64,000 bases of DNA from Tildeniella nuda ZEHNDER 1965/U140 (GTDB taxonomy: Bacteria; Cyanobacteriota; Cyanobacteriia; Leptolyngbyales; Leptolyngbyaceae): assembly GCA_019358895.1 (NCBI GenBank), contig JAHHIG010000006.1:248001-312000 (forward strand). Direction: 5' to 3'. Under the pieces are notes generated by a model. The model was given only the letters and a program-made list of their open reading frames with translations, was not told the origin of the DNA and searched no databases. Shown one piece after another: positions 19,275 through 25,556 of the stretch (positions are counted from its first letter, which is position 1; the number at the start of each line of letters is the position of its first letter). A program made the translations under genes and the position numbers.

Positions 19275-19354
19275 TCGCAACCAAATGTTACCGCTGGTGA
19301 AGATGGCGATCGTCAGCTAAGATGGAACGCATGAACTAATCTGAAGTGGTCGTC

Positions 19355-19876
19355 ATGAATATCTTTCGGCGCGTATGGGACTCATTTGGGTTTGAGGATC
19401 GCTACGACGAGAACGAGTATGACTATGAGTACGAGGAAGAAGACGGCTCTGCCTATTATGCCTCTGACACGATCGACCCCGCGCAACAGCAACTGACTCC
19501 GCCCAGTAATGTCGTAGGGATGCCAAACCGTAAAATGGCGCATACAGAAATGTACCTGATGGAGCCGCGCTCATTTGAGGAAATGCCCCAGGCGGTAACG
19601 GCATTACGCGAACGGCGATCGATCATCCTGAACCTGAGCTTAATGGATGCCGATGCCGCACAGCGCTGCGTCGATTTTGTTGCGGGTGCAGCGTTCGCCA
19701 TTGATGGACACCAAGAGCGCATCGGTGAGCATATTTTCCTGTTCACGCCGAGCTTTGTGCAAATCAGCAGCTATCCGACCGGAATGCAGCCAGCACCACA
19801 GCGGATACCAATGCCACCAACTCAGATCACTCCGCCTGCTCCTGCCTGGGGCAATACAACCCAGATGAGCCATTAG
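19355..19876 (+). CDS. sepF: Cell division protein SepF
   Basis: SepF polymerises and tethers FtsZ to the membrane; in cyanobacteria it is the YlmF/Cdv2-type division protein. 173 residues: an N-terminal amphipathic start ([15 protein letters not shown]), a very acidic Tyr/Glu/Asp linker, the conserved core [15 protein letters not shown] then [25 protein letters not shown], and a Pro/Gln/Thr-rich tail. I start at the ATG at 19355 because it matches the family N-terminus; a GTG nine bases upstream is the alternative. Confidence 0.93.
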
Positions 19877-20070
19877 AATCCGTTTAGCATCACGCAAAGC
19901 CAAAGCCAGCGTGTAAGACAGCAGCGTATTCAAATGCTCTCACATAGCCACCTAACTCTCGTAATCTACCATTGGTAGGCATGTACTGAAGAGGTTGCGA
20001 TCGCCACTGTACTGAGGTTTTTTGTACTCAATGCTGAAGACTGCATTCCAATAACGCTGTTTTCGTTTGT
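19877..20070. other. Spacer between sepF and the integron attC
   Basis: No gene. It includes AGCCACCTAACT at 19947-19958, a 12-mer identical to the core-flanking sequence at the attI side (21254-21265), and an odd palindrome CTACCATTGGTAG. Confidence 0.5.
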
Positions 20071-20156
20071 ACCTAACGTCTAAGCTAACCGGACAACGGT
20101 AACTTCTGCAAATTCAACAATTTGCGGCTAGGTCCGGTTCAGCGCAGTTGTTAGGT
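20071..20156 (-). other. attC recombination site (86 bp)
   Basis: In cassette orientation the site opens with the R'' core ACCTAAC (complement of 20150-20156) and ends with the R' core GTTAGGT (complement of 20071-20077). Inner arms AACCGGAC and GTCCGGTT pair. The longer arms pair with a single unpaired G in the L'' arm (GCTGAACC against GGTTAGC), as expected for the extrahelical base that sets strand choice. A 7-bp stem GCAAATT/AATTTGC forms the variable tip. The cassette stop codon TAA lies inside R'', as is common in cassettes. Confidence 0.92.
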
Positions 20157-21173
20157 GACTGGCAGTAATGGGACTTTTTCAAGTAGACTCTCTGGAACAC
20201 TGTATGTACTTTCCAAAAGGAATGGGTCATGCGAAAATAATTCTGCCCAGTCTAAAATCAACTCAGGCGTTATTAAGCGATTTACCTCTTCTCGCAACGC
20301 CACAGTCTTCTCTTGAGGAAGGAAATATATATTGTCGTTGTGCTCTTCCATTGGCGGGTATTTTGCATCTACCGAACCAGCGATAGAACCAAGCATTCTT
20401 GAGCCTTGCCAAATAACTTGAGGAATGGCTCTATCCACATCAGAAGGAACAATTATAGATTTGCATAATAAATCGCTAGCGCCCAATAACCAAACTGACA
20501 GTGCACCTCTCCAATATGGATCATAAATTGAAATACAAGAATGTATCCATGTATAAATTTCTTTTGGCTCCAGATATTTTAAGCAGAAGAACATCATGGA
20601 TGAGAGGTTGCAATTTGCTTTTCTTGCATTCCAATCCATTCGTAAAGTGTCATTTTTGTTTCTCCAGATTTGAAAGTTAAATTTGGGGTATGAACTTTTC
20701 GTAAGTTCATCTTGATAATCAATCCATAAATCAGAAACCATAAGACTGACAGATAACGAGCAAATAACATCCTCCCGAAACTCAGGATATTCTTCTGGAA
20801 TTCCTTTCCAATAAATACACATAAACGCTGCTGCAATATCTTGAATCAGCAGCGTTTCGTCATAACTTACCAACTCATGGCAGCGAGCAATTGAATACGG
20901 CAGCAGATACTTAAACCATTGATCCCACTCATCTCTATGACCAAAACAACAAGTTCCAGAAGATATTTCAGTCAGTGCTTTCGACAAAATCTTGACTGGG
21001 ACTTGTTCAATAGGTTGCTCCATCAGCTCATGGAACATACGTCTTTTTTCGCTCATAAACCATGCTTCACCCATTGGTTCCAAAGGTTTGTGGAAATGCG
21101 CTTGCATTCTGCCAAGGGAATCTAACGCAATCTCTTGCTTCGGTATCCATCGGTATTCAGGTTTACTAGCCAT
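20151..21173 (-). CDS. Integron cassette gene, unknown function
   Basis: 340-residue protein I do not recognise. It is rich in aromatics (WIPKQEIAL, WDQWFKYLLPYSIARCHE, YWKGIPEEYPEF, DPYWRGALSVWLLGASDLL), with no signal peptide, no clear membrane span and no catalytic motif I can name. The C-terminal part is helical in character (EEVNRLITPELILDWAELF). The gene is clearly more AT-rich than its neighbours and lacks GCGATCGC sites, consistent with transfer. Its TAA stop is inside attC R''. As the only gene of the cassette it would be read from an attI-side promoter or its own. Confidence 0.8.
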   Translation of the reverse strand: MASKPEYRWIPKQEIALDSLGRMQAHFHKPLEPMGEAWFMSEKRRMFHELMEQPIEQVPVKILSKALTEISSGTCCFGHRDEWDQWFKYLLPYSIARCHELVSYDETLLIQDIAAAFMCIYWKGIPEEYPEFREDVICSLSVSLMVSDLWIDYQDELTKSSYPKFNFQIWRNKNDTLRMDWNARKANCNLSSMMFFCLKYLEPKEIYTWIHSCISIYDPYWRGALSVWLLGASDLLCKSIIVPSDVDRAIPQVIWQGSRMLGSIAGSVDAKYPPMEEHNDNIYFLPQEKTVALREEVNRLITPELILDWAELFSHDPFLLESTYSVPESLLEKVPLLPVT

Positions 21174-21256
21174 GTCTGGTAGTTATTTCAAAGCAATTAC
21201 CTTACAAAACTCTAACGAAAAACTCTTACGCATTGCTCAACTCAGTAGATGAAGCC

Positions 21257-21348
21257 ACCTAACTACTGATTATACGGAAAGTTTCCGTATATCTCCCTGA
21301 TTTGGGCGGATACCCTGAAACTTTCCGTGTATTTTCCCTCACTTTCCA
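21257..21348 (-). other. attI-like region with direct and inverted repeats
   Basis: ACCTAAC at 21257-21263 (GTTAGGT in cassette orientation) is the expected attI crossover core. On the integrase side lie a palindrome ATACGGAAAGTTTCCGTAT (21272-21290) and an imperfect direct repeat: GTTTCCGTATATCTCCCT at 21281-21298 resembles CTTTCCGTGTATTTTCCCT at 21321-21339. Characterised attI sites carry integrase-binding direct repeats beside the core, so a binding role is inferred. Confidence 0.6.
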
Positions 21349-21408
21349 TTAGATATTTTGATTACATAAGATTAGAACCATTATTTTGCTGAAGAATCAT
21401 AAAATTCT

Positions 21409-21614
21409 ATGGATGAGCGTCCCAAAATACTATTGGAGGTTGTGCGGGACACAATTCGGCCCAAACATTACTCGTGTCAAATTGAAAAAGTTATGTTCAG
21501 TGGATTAAGCGATACGTTGCTTTTCATCACAAGCGGCAGCCACGGAAAATGGGGCTACCAGAAATCGAAGCATTCTTGACGCGTTAGATGAATACGCAGG
21601 ATCGGGCAGTGCAT
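21409..21614 (+). pseudogene. intI: Integron integrase (intI) N-terminal remnant
   Basis: An ATG at 21409 starts MDERPKILLEVVRDTIRPKHYS, which matches the start of IntI core-binding domains (…LLDQVRDxIRxKHYSxRTE…). Near 21490 one base is missing (GAAAAAGTTATG where GAA AAA GCT TAT is expected). After that shift the next frame reads YVQWIKRYVAFHHKRQ and MGLPEIEAFLTR, both strongly IntI-like. A TAG at 21585-21587 follows and the match then fades. The catalytic tyrosine-recombinase domain (~200 residues) is gone, cut off before the 3' end of gcvP. The enzyme is certainly inactive. Confidence 0.87.
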
Positions 21615-21655
21615 GATGGCGCACTAGCTCAGACTGCTTGCTTTTCAACGGCGAC

Positions 21656-24619
21656 TTAGCTTTCGTAAGCAGTCATGGGTGGGCAGGTGCAGACAAGGTT
21701 GCGATCGCCATACGCCTGATCAATCCGTCCCACAGCCGCCCAGAACTTGTTGTTGCGTGTCCATGCGGTTGGATAGGCAGCTTGCTGACGCGAGTAAGGA
21801 TGATCCCAATGGTCGGACATCAGTGCCGCAGCAGTGTGAGGGGCGTGCTTGAGAAGATTGTTTTGGCGATCGACTGTACCATCCTCAATTGCCTGAATTT
21901 CAGCGCGAATCGCAATCATGGCATCACAGAAGCGATCGAGTTCCTGCTTCGACTCACTCTCTGTGGGTTCTACCATGATGGTACCTGCAACGGGCCACGA
22001 CACCGTAGGCGGATGGAAGCCATAGTCGATGAGCCGCTTGGCGATGTCATCCACTTCAATCTCAGCGGTTTTTTTGAACTGACGTAAGTCCAAAATGCAC
22101 TCATGAGCGACCAAGCCATGCTTGCCCTTGTAAAGTACTGGATAATGACCTTCCAGCCGTTTGGCAATGTAGTTTGCGCTGAGAATTGCCACCTGCGTCG
22201 CTTTAGTCAGCCCGTCTACACCCATCAGCGCAATGTAAACCCAGGAAATTGGTAGAATGCTGGGGCTACCCCATGGCGCGGCTGAGACGGCACCAATACC
22301 CTGTTTGCCACCGACGGGCACGATCGGGTGTTGAGGCAAAAAGGGGACAAGATGCGCTGCTACGCCGATCGGACCCATACCCGGACCGCCGCCGCCATGT
22401 GGAATACAGAAAGTCTTGTGCAGATTCAAGTGGCAGACATCCGCACCAAAGTCACCGGGGCGGCACAAGCCTACTTGCGCGTTTAAGTTAGCACCGTCCA
22501 TGTAAACCTGTCCACCGTGAGCATGAATCGTCTCGCAAATGTCTTGAATCGCCTCTTCAAAGACACCGTGCGTGGAGGGGTATGTCACCATCAGCGCGGC
22601 TAGATGCTCTCGATGCTGCTCTGCTTTTGCTTTGAGATCAGCAACATCAATATTCCCGTCGCGATCGCAGGCAATGGGCACTACGTTCATCCCTGCCATG
22701 ACCGCGCTGGCAGGATTGGTGCCATGAGCCGATTGAGGAATCAGGCACAGATTGCGGTGCCCTTCGCCACGCTGCTCGTGATACTGATGAATGACCAATA
22801 GTCCGGTATATTCACCTTGTGAGCCTGCATTTGGTTGGAGCGATACGCCAGCGAACCCCGTAATTTCTGCCAACCAGTGCTCTAGCTGCCGAAAGAGCGT
22901 CTGGTAACCGTGTGTCTGGTCAAGTGGTGCGAAGGGATGAATCTGCCCGAACTCTGCCCAGGTAACGGGTAGCATTTCGGCAGTCGCGTTGAGCTTCATC
23001 GTGCAAGAGCCAAGGGGAATCATCGCCGTTGTGAGCGATAGATCTTTGGACTCCAGACGATGCAGGTAGCGCAGTAGCTCTGTTTCTGAGTGGTAGACAT
23101 TGAAGACGGGATGCGTCAGGTAAGGCGTAGAGCGGAGCAACGATGACGGGATGAGGTGAGGCGGCGCGGCGGTGAGCAAATCTTCGGGGGTGAAGTGAGT
23201 AATTTCTGCACCCGCAAAGACCTGGAAGAGAGCAAGCAGGTCATCTGAAGAAACGGTTTCGTCTAGAGCGATCGTGAACGTCTGGGCATTGAGCTGCCGC
23301 AGATTAATTTGGTGGGAATGTGCCCGCCGAGTGATTTCGGCTACTTTATCGTCAGGGACGGTAACGCGCAAGGTATCAAAGAACGGCTCTGCACTGGGGG
23401 CATACCCTAGCCGTCGCAAGCCTTCTGCCAGGATGACTGTGAGACGATGGACACGATCGCCAATCTGCCTTAATCCAACGGGACCGTGGTATACCGCATA
23501 CATACCAGCCACGATCGCCAGCAGCACCTGTGCCGTACAAATATTGCTGGTCGCTTTGTCTCGCCGAATATGCTGTTCGCGGGTTTGCAGGGCAAGGCGC
23601 AAGGCAGGCGCTCCATGCACATCTTTGGACACCCCTACCAGGCGACCCGGCAGTTGTCGCTTGAAGGCATCCTTGGTGGCAAAGTAAGCGGCATGGGGTC
23701 CGCCATAGCCCAGCGGCACACCAAACCGTTGGGTATTACCGATCGCAATGTCTGCTCCAAATTCGCCCGGTGGCACTAGCAGCGTCAGGCTCAACAAATC
23801 GGCGGCAACAGTAACTAAGGCTCCAGCAGCATGAGCGCGATCGCAGAAATCCCGATAGTCATAAATCGCCCCATCGGTGGCTGGGTATTGCAGCAGCACG
23901 CCAAAGACAGGTTGATCAAACTGGAAGGTGTGGTGATCGCCCACAATTACTTCAATGCCCAAAGGTTTAGCGCGAGTTTGCACTACCGCGATCGTCTGCG
24001 GATGGCACGCTTCAGACACCCAAAACGCGGTTGCTTTCGTCTTGCTCACGCCATAGCTCATCGTCATGGCTTCTGCCGCTGCCGTTGCTTCATCCAGCAG
24101 AGACGCATTTGCAATTTCCAGCCCCGTCAGATCTGTCACCATTGTCTGAAAGTTGAGCAGCGCTTCCAATCGTCCCTGCGCGATTTCGGGCTGATAGGGT
24201 GTGTACTGCGTATACCAACCGGGATTCTCTAGAACGTTGCGCTGGATCACAGGTGGCGTAATGCAGTTGGCGTAACCCATGCCAATGAAAGAGCGAAACA
24301 CGTGGTTTTCTTGCGCAATTTCTCTCAGCTCTGCCAGCAGCTCATACTCTGCTTTGCCCGATTCGAGCCGCAGTGGTTTTCGTAGTCGAATGGCGCGCGG
24401 AATGGTTGCGTCAATCAAGGCTTCCAGGCTGTCGAACCCGATCGCCGCCAGCATTTGGTCAATGTCAGGCTCACGTGGACCAATGTGGCGATCGACAAAA
24501 ACATCGGTGTACTCTAGCGGGTTAGAGGTTGAGACGCTGGGCGGAGAAACGGTAGCCCCGTTCACCTTCGGCTCGGTTCTCTTGGTCTCACTGAAGCTGG
24601 ATTGAGAAGGCTCTAGCAT
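21656..24619 (-). CDS. gcvP: Glycine dehydrogenase (decarboxylating), P protein
   Basis: PLP-dependent P protein of the glycine cleavage system. It decarboxylates glycine and passes the aminomethyl group to lipoyl-GcvH, which is central to photorespiratory glycine use. 987 residues with the duplicated P-protein fold: N-terminal half [29 protein letters not shown]-terminal half with GSCTMKLNA and the PLP-Lys motif [18 protein letters not shown]. Length is normal. Last gene of gcvT-gcvH-gcvP, 320 bp after gcvH, so it may have its own promoter. Its 3' end borders the integron relic. Confidence 0.97.
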
Positions 24620-24939: not shown

Positions 24940-25329
24940 TTACTCACCTTCGACTTGCTGGCGATACTCATCTGCCGAGAGCGCGTCATCTAAGTCGTTA
25001 TGATTGTTGACTCTGACCTTCAGCAGCCAACCTTCGCCATAGGGGTCTTCCGCAAGCTGCTCTGGTGTCTCAATGAGCGGAGCGTTGACTTCAATGATCG
25101 TGCCTGTAACGGGAGCGTTGAGGTCTTCAACCGCTTTAACCGATTCTACAGTGCCAAACTTTTCACCTTTTGCGATCGCATCGCCCATCTCTGGCAGTTC
25201 CAGAAAAACAATATCGCCCAGTTGATCGACCGCAAACGCACTGATGCCGATCGTTGCAATTTCGCCTTCCAGTCGGGCGTATTCATGCGAGTCCAGGTAC
25301 TTTAGATCATCAGGATAGTCAAATGTCAT
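24940..25329 (-). CDS. gcvH: Glycine cleavage system H protein
   Basis: Small lipoylated shuttle that carries the aminomethyl group between GcvP, GcvT and the L protein. 129 residues; the lipoyl Lys is in [15 protein letters not shown] (~residue 65), with [20 protein letters not shown] before it and [16 protein letters not shown] sequence ([12 protein letters not shown]) after. Standard length. Between gcvT and gcvP on the same strand, separated from gcvT by a heptamer array. Confidence 0.97.
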
Positions 25330-25358
25330 GTGGGTTCCTCAGAGCAATTTGGAATACA

Positions 25359-25473
25359 AGCTATCAGCGGTTAGCGGTCAGCGGTCAGCTATCAGCGGTC
25401 AGCTATCAGCGGTCAGCTATCAGCGGTTAGCGGTCAGCGGTTGGCGGTCAGCGGTCAGCTATCAGCGGTCAGC
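25359..25473. repeat. Heptamer array in gcvT-gcvH gap
   Basis: Sixteen or so CAGCGGT/TAGCGGT/CAGCTAT heptamers in tandem. Shorter related units reappear at 25537-25560 at the 3' end of gcvT. The array separates two genes that would otherwise form a tight operon. Confidence 0.9.
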
Positions 25474-25556
25474 CATAGTGATCCTACTTGAATTGTGTCG
25501 ATCGTTTGGTTTAGACAACAGCCCGTTACACAAAGCTGACGGCTGACCGCTGACCG

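Follow-up and report, generated by a model that had tools for sequence, protein, structure and literature searches.

Integrons are already known from Cyanobacteria, as are pseudogenes of their integrases (PMC2426708, PMC8352920, PMC8618304). In the passages of this literature on which we draw, intI pseudogenes make up about one third of intI genes (PMC2426708), a cyanobacterial attC model stands among those for 11 taxa (PMC8352920), and lists of phyla are given (PMC8618304, PMC9668308). Further passages concern cassettes that stand apart from an integrase. The term SALIN has been used for a single attC site lacking an integrase (PMC12690207), calls of single sites can be true, as in a single-attC CALIN (PMC9024848), attG insertion has been set against CALIN places that are conserved in Xanthomonas (PMC12444791), and cassette insertion of the attG type is also cited in PMC12901181. 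Our search of the open-licence literature brought up no report of single attC sites scattered over cyanobacterial genomes, and no claim to a first report is made here.

Here we describe a locus of Tildeniella nuda ZEHNDER 1965/U140, contained in a stretch of 64,000 nucleotides (the window, meaning the whole stretch that was analysed). We conclude, with a probability of roughly 0.85, that this locus is the remnant of a chromosomal integron, comprising the broken start of intI, a likely attI, one cassette and a predicted attC (Table 1), and that its attC is one of many predicted sites scattered over the genome.

Results

The window locus

Table 1. Features of the integron remnant and its flanks, in window coordinates.
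Feature	Position	Strand	Remarks
sepF	19346-19876	+	host gene, one flank; SepF 91% to Stenomitos frigidus
gcvP 3'-terminal fragment, diverged	19952-20077	-	about 40 codons to the stop; starts at attC R'
attC, predicted	20071-20156	-	R''=ACCTAAC, R'=GTTAGGT, one extra G in L''; model R1
gene cassette	20077-21262	-	1186 bp, bounded by TT of the 5' core and G of R'; cores match
cassette gene	20151-21173	-	340 codons, open frame; TAA stop inside R''
5' core GTTAGGT	21257-21263	-	attI x attC junction; exact copy of the R'' complement
attI-like segment	21264-21408	-	between intI remnant and cassette; homology to G190
intI remnant	21409-21635	+	first ~70 codons, with frameshift and stops; rest missing
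gcvP, complete	21656-24619	-	host gene, other flank

The attC site was scored with R1, a covariance model whose 21 training sites were candidates from a box-rule scan of integron arrays in other members of the family and the class; the window site and all sites of this genome were left out. In the R1 alignment of these 21 sites, 12 of 19 pairs were changed on both sides, and 90% of cells were paired as compared to 22-39% when the partners were slid. An earlier note, made from the sequence alone, had reported an attC with matching R and L boxes and had set a call by a covariance model as its test. Indeed, R1 scores this site at 55.1 bits (E 3e-10, R1 E-values being rough) and gives no other match at E≤1 anywhere in the 64 kb, and the DNA fold of the site was better than those of 200/200 shuffles on each strand (z -4.5 and -4.0). 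By way of control, 294,840 bases from 50 gcvP loci gave two R1 matches at E≤1, the best at 25.6 bits, and 309,350 bases surrounding cassette-gene homologues gave five, confined to 2 of 47 loci. The site combines paired R and L boxes with a conserved fold, as is looked for in a remnant. Its L'' box reads GCT[G]AACCGGAC and its L' box GTCCGGTTAGC; the one extra G in L'' is the usual attC asymmetry. Searches of the window with Rfam 15 and for tRNA genes returned no match.

The cassette itself has the expected anatomy, with G/TTRRRY cores bounding a single gene at both ends and the stop of that gene, a TAA inside ACCTAAC, falling within R''. Both the cassette-type gene ending in R'' and the far GTTAGGT core, as claimed in the earlier note, are thereby confirmed. 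The encoded protein has matches to 69 proteins at E≤0.001, itself included, the nearest being 87% identical, and finds no family at E≤1 in Pfam, NCBIfam or PADLOC. Distant homologues were also seen near attC sites in Proteobacteria, namely in Luteimonas aquatica (L131) and Ramlibacter pallidus (L129). Separately, we observed that the 11-mer GTTAGGTGGCT has exactly two copies in the window (-), one at 19946-19956, where the gcvP fragment has its stop, and one at 21253-21263, where the cassette starts.

On the other side of the cassette, and on the opposite strand, lies sequence derived from intI, so that integrase and cassette are divergent, as in an integron remnant. Positions 21477-21635 (+) match TIGR02249 from position 17 to 69 of 315 (32.8 bits, E 1.4e-7) across one TGA and one TAG, the start from 21409 is in a different frame, and the match ends near codon 70, beside gcvP. 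Thus, the frameshift, stops and truncation that had been proposed are all present, and the catalytic half, where the additional domain specific to IntI is sited, is missing. The window locus accordingly lacks the intact intI adjoining attI that marks a complete integron. However, the TIGR02249 score alone is not specific, because this model weakly matches any tyrosine recombinase, including those of 14/14 control genomes and others of this genome at 31-32 bits; we therefore compared the proteins directly. Against 30 IntI proteins of related genomes the remnant gave a best E of 1.8e-15, with 72% identity over 32 residues to the IntI of G190 and G373, whereas three other recombinases of the same genome gave a best E of 0.23. 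The earlier identification of an integrase N-terminal part running the other way is upheld by these values, although the remnant ends at about 21635 and not at 21590. Between it and the cassette, the putative attI is recognised by homology alone, being 85.5% identical over 69 bp to a segment of the G190 integron, the match stopping at the first-cassette core there.

These results bear on the alternative that no integron was ever present and that a chance inverted repeat lies beside a decayed recombinase of the XerC/D or phage type. Such a reading would account for the shortness of the remnant, for a TIGR02249 score no better than that of the genome's other recombinases and shared by every control, and for the failure of Pfam and NCBIfam to find anything in the two remnant pieces. 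It does not account for the wide gap between the IntI and non-IntI comparisons, for an attC of this score standing alone in 64 kb, for the presence of all parts in integron order and polarity, or for attI homology that stops at the core. We regard it as hardly credible, and as refuted by the combination of IntI match, attC model, order of parts and attI homology.

Both flanks are host genes, and by its SepF (91% to Stenomitos frigidus) the organism is close to Stenomitos. In G304, a member of the same genus, sepF and gcvP converge across a gap of about 0.7 kb that has no match to IntI or attC, consistent with the claim that an integron with one cassette was acquired between these two genes. 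It should be noted that sepF adjoins gcvP in only 1 of 20 stretches examined, that of G304, several of the stretches being short. While gcvP had been correctly named as a flank, the earlier note missed the diverged 3'-terminal gcvP fragment at the attC, between it and sepF, which is recognisable by tblastn (46% over 39 residues, E 4.5e-5). This fragment is nearer to some other gcvP ends (81.5% over 54 bp in G288) than to the gcvP of its own genome (75% over 60 bp). Since a complete gcvP and a diverged end of the gene flank the remnant, one could suppose that the integron came in a genomic island at the gcvP 3' end, carrying a replacement gcvP end, and that the fragment is the displaced old end. 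The greater similarity to the G288 end would agree with this, but the matches concerned are short, the fragment begins at R' of the attC, which is not predicted for an island end, and no island integrase or other island gene is seen in the 1.8 kb. An island origin is thus unlikely in our judgement. Beyond the locus, a run of short repeats visible in translations at about 25254-25546 of the window (…AVSGQLSAVSYQRSAISG…) is an intergenic repeat array.

An intact integron integrase and scattered predicted attC sites in the same genome

The analysis does not support a reading of this locus as the integron of the genome or as an oddity for the phylum. The earlier note had proposed a search for further attC sites or an intact intI, and that search found both. 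Contig C36 encodes an intact IntI (462.7 bits with TIGR02249) followed by attI, a first cassette with a 350-codon gene, an attC at 66.5 bits (R1) and then the contig end, and at least 33 predicted attC sites lie on 18 contigs. Moreover, a survey of 388 genomes of the class gave an IntI match at E≤1e-60 in 130 and a score above the curated cut-off in 122, and cyanobacterial integrons have already been published.

Given the C36 integron, of the same genome and with the same type of attC, the window locus might be a copy of it or a piece moved from it. Copies of attI do exist in this genome: at C36:38090 (L158), a copy of the C36 attI is found at 77% over 177 bp without IntI. By eye, C38:11640 and C35:55573 are also attI-like, and with 30 IntI proteins no intI remnant was found beside any of these three places. 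Yet the window remnant is only 62.5% identical over 32 residues to the C36 IntI, its DNA has no blastn match to the C36 intI-attI region, unlike the G190 intI-attI region, which does match, and the attI segments of the window and C36 differ. Descent from the C36 integron is therefore very improbable.

With R1, at least 39 matches at E≤1 were obtained in the genome, of which at least 33 had E≤0.003; of the 2323 candidates from a first look, 150 were scored, and the count may be a lower bound. Scores of 44 bits or more were reached by 27 of the 33 sites, whereas the 3/33 under about 40 bits are less sure, because two matches at 25-26 bits turned up in the 295 kb of gcvP loci. Small arrays are present on C31 and C38. 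On their contigs, 24 of the 33 sites are alone to a distance of 20 kb. When only lone sites with enough contig on both sides are counted, 20 remain for a distance of 4 kb, 18 for 10 kb and 16 for 20 kb.

Sites were also counted in other genomes. In G190, which is one single contig, there are 34 predicted attC sites; for 21 of these the next one lies over 10 kb away, and the sites are spread like a uniform distribution (KS p 0.48). The six other genomes of the genus carry 21-47 sites each. G142 and G224, with 47 sites each, are the two of seven genomes of the genus that gave no IntI match at E≤1e-60, suggesting that cassettes may outlive their integrase. Counts in seven more genomes, taken from the family and the class, run from 2 to 92, and arrays are clearly present in G135 (87 sites) and G149 (92 sites).

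The scattered sites show cassette anatomy in 30 own sites with flanks, of which the 27 with an R'' ending in AAC were used for a test of the core. A gene end (of a frame of at least 50 codons) lies within -60 to +12 of R'' in 22 of 30, as compared to 18% of random places and 5/30 on the opposite strand. The site's own 7-base core recurs upstream in 15/27 (mean 2.7 and maximum 7 in 200 swapped-core controls), and with extended pairing in 7, against 0.33 in that control; a few of the upstream cores lie inside a gene and are due to chance. R' is the complement of R'' in only 3/30. For 30 sites of five other genomes, a gene end was present at 20 and the own core at 8/28 (control 1.6, maximum 6). 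When ten of the genes carried by these cassettes were scanned, they included BrnT with BrnA, a ParE-like protein, DUF5615, two GNAT acetyltransferases, a SpoU methylase, a short-chain dehydrogenase, OsmC and a protein of beta-lactamase fold. Such cargo is usual for cassettes.

Comparison with relatives: probable insertion and array decay

Twelve sites or pairs were compared within the genus by way of their flanks, and for 2/12 the cassette was absent from the same intergenic place in relatives. The BrnT/BrnA cassette at C32:162614 lies in a space of about 946 bp that separates an aminotransferase gene from its neighbour in this genome, whereas the same flanks are 107 bp apart in G224 and 271 bp in G304. 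Similarly, the space holding the cassette after a recJ-like gene at C28:154150 measures about 1000 bp versus 82 in G304, and 962 versus 49 in G084. The other 10/12 gave no empty site, a flank being missing in the relatives, the flanks lying on different contigs, or paralogues blurring the picture.

Some of these sites point to array decay instead. At C11:673278, the right neighbour is the small gene that borders the last attC of the intact integron of G270 (L249, G270:C6), which speaks for decay of an array here; at the matching place, G224 (L251, G224:C82) has a bare CCGTTAGC. At C11:490054 (L157), five relatives contain both flanks but always on separate contigs, these genomes being drafts. 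The flanks are split there as if the attC site were a rearrangement breakpoint.

One may thus ask whether all scattered single attC sites are only leftovers of old arrays broken by deletion and rearrangement, with no separate insertions. The C11:673278 and C11:490054 patterns and the existence of small arrays speak for this, as do R' halves that are often core-like (TTRRRY), which would be expected of array remnants too, although R1 itself favours such sites. Against it, for each of two single cassettes the matching intergenic space is short and without a cassette in two relatives, and the G190 sites are evenly spread over a single contig. We consider it possible that array decay explains every site, but lean against it. 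The empty places in relatives together with the C11:673278 and C11:490054 patterns suggest that both insertion and array decay left lone sites. Because an intact integrase is encoded elsewhere and about 30 more predicted attC sites are present, more than half of them alone, cassettes were likely inserted all over the chromosome and not in one array only. The overall pattern fits a natural scattering of single cassettes, mixed with decayed arrays.

Discussion

Taking the window locus as an integron remnant, its history and present state can be sketched as follows. When whole, its IntI would have joined the folded single-stranded attC of the cassette to attI, which would leave G/TT junctions such as stand at either end of the cassette. 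Thereafter, the reading frame of intI would have been broken and its 3' part removed at the point at which the remnant now meets gcvP; we infer that one cassette was kept and that the integrase was then lost. With frame and 3' part gone, the locus presumably no longer acts by itself. The intact IntI encoded elsewhere is nevertheless predicted to be able to excise the window cassette in trans, because the boxes of the attC are intact and its extrahelical G is retained. Elsewhere in the genome, this integrase likely put single cassettes into ordinary intergenic places by attG-type insertion, and other single attC sites are likely leftovers of arrays.

A wider proposal can be offered tentatively, at somewhat less than even odds: that the integron is in these cyanobacteria a chromosome-wide system, in which single cassettes, some with toxin-antitoxin and enzyme genes, are placed genome-wide by the integrase, cassettes and attC sites outlive it, and attC sites serve as rearrangement breakpoints, the window locus with gcvP on both sides being one such junction.

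Cassette insertion outside integrons is known from the laboratory, and Loot et al. are said to have demonstrated insertion of the attG type experimentally in E. coli in 2024. Its natural extent is the question that genomes such as this one could address. With an intact integrase, dozens of lone attC sites and relatives that lack the single cassettes at the same place, natural insertion would become directly measurable. Furthermore, array-based counts overlook most of the cassettes that such genomes contain, and a cassette that appears to be a relic may still move, given an integrase elsewhere in the genome.

The closest described systems each share part of this arrangement, as far as the passages cited describe them. 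With sedentary chromosomal integrons, including those of Cyanobacteria, the window locus shares the order and polarity of intI, attI, cassette and attC, the attC structure and the stop in R'' (PMC2426708, PMC8352920, PMC8618304); it differs in its broken and truncated intI and its single cassette, and the other attC sites of the genome lie mostly outside arrays. In pseudo-integrons, intI is likewise inactivated by frameshift and stop, and a second, intact integrase per genome is also a recorded pattern (PMC2426708), whereas the window locus is without most of intI and has gcvP sequence on both sides. The SALIN, a lone attC with one cassette (PMC12690207, PMC9024848), resembles many sites of this genome, but the window site retains attI and the start of intI, and lone sites are numerous in each genome. 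Finally, attG-type insertion likewise puts single cassettes at ordinary sites of the chromosome, where the attC is followed by non-self sequence (PMC12444791, PMC12901181); while that process is experimental and from E. coli, its counterpart here is suggested by the sequences of natural cyanobacterial genomes.
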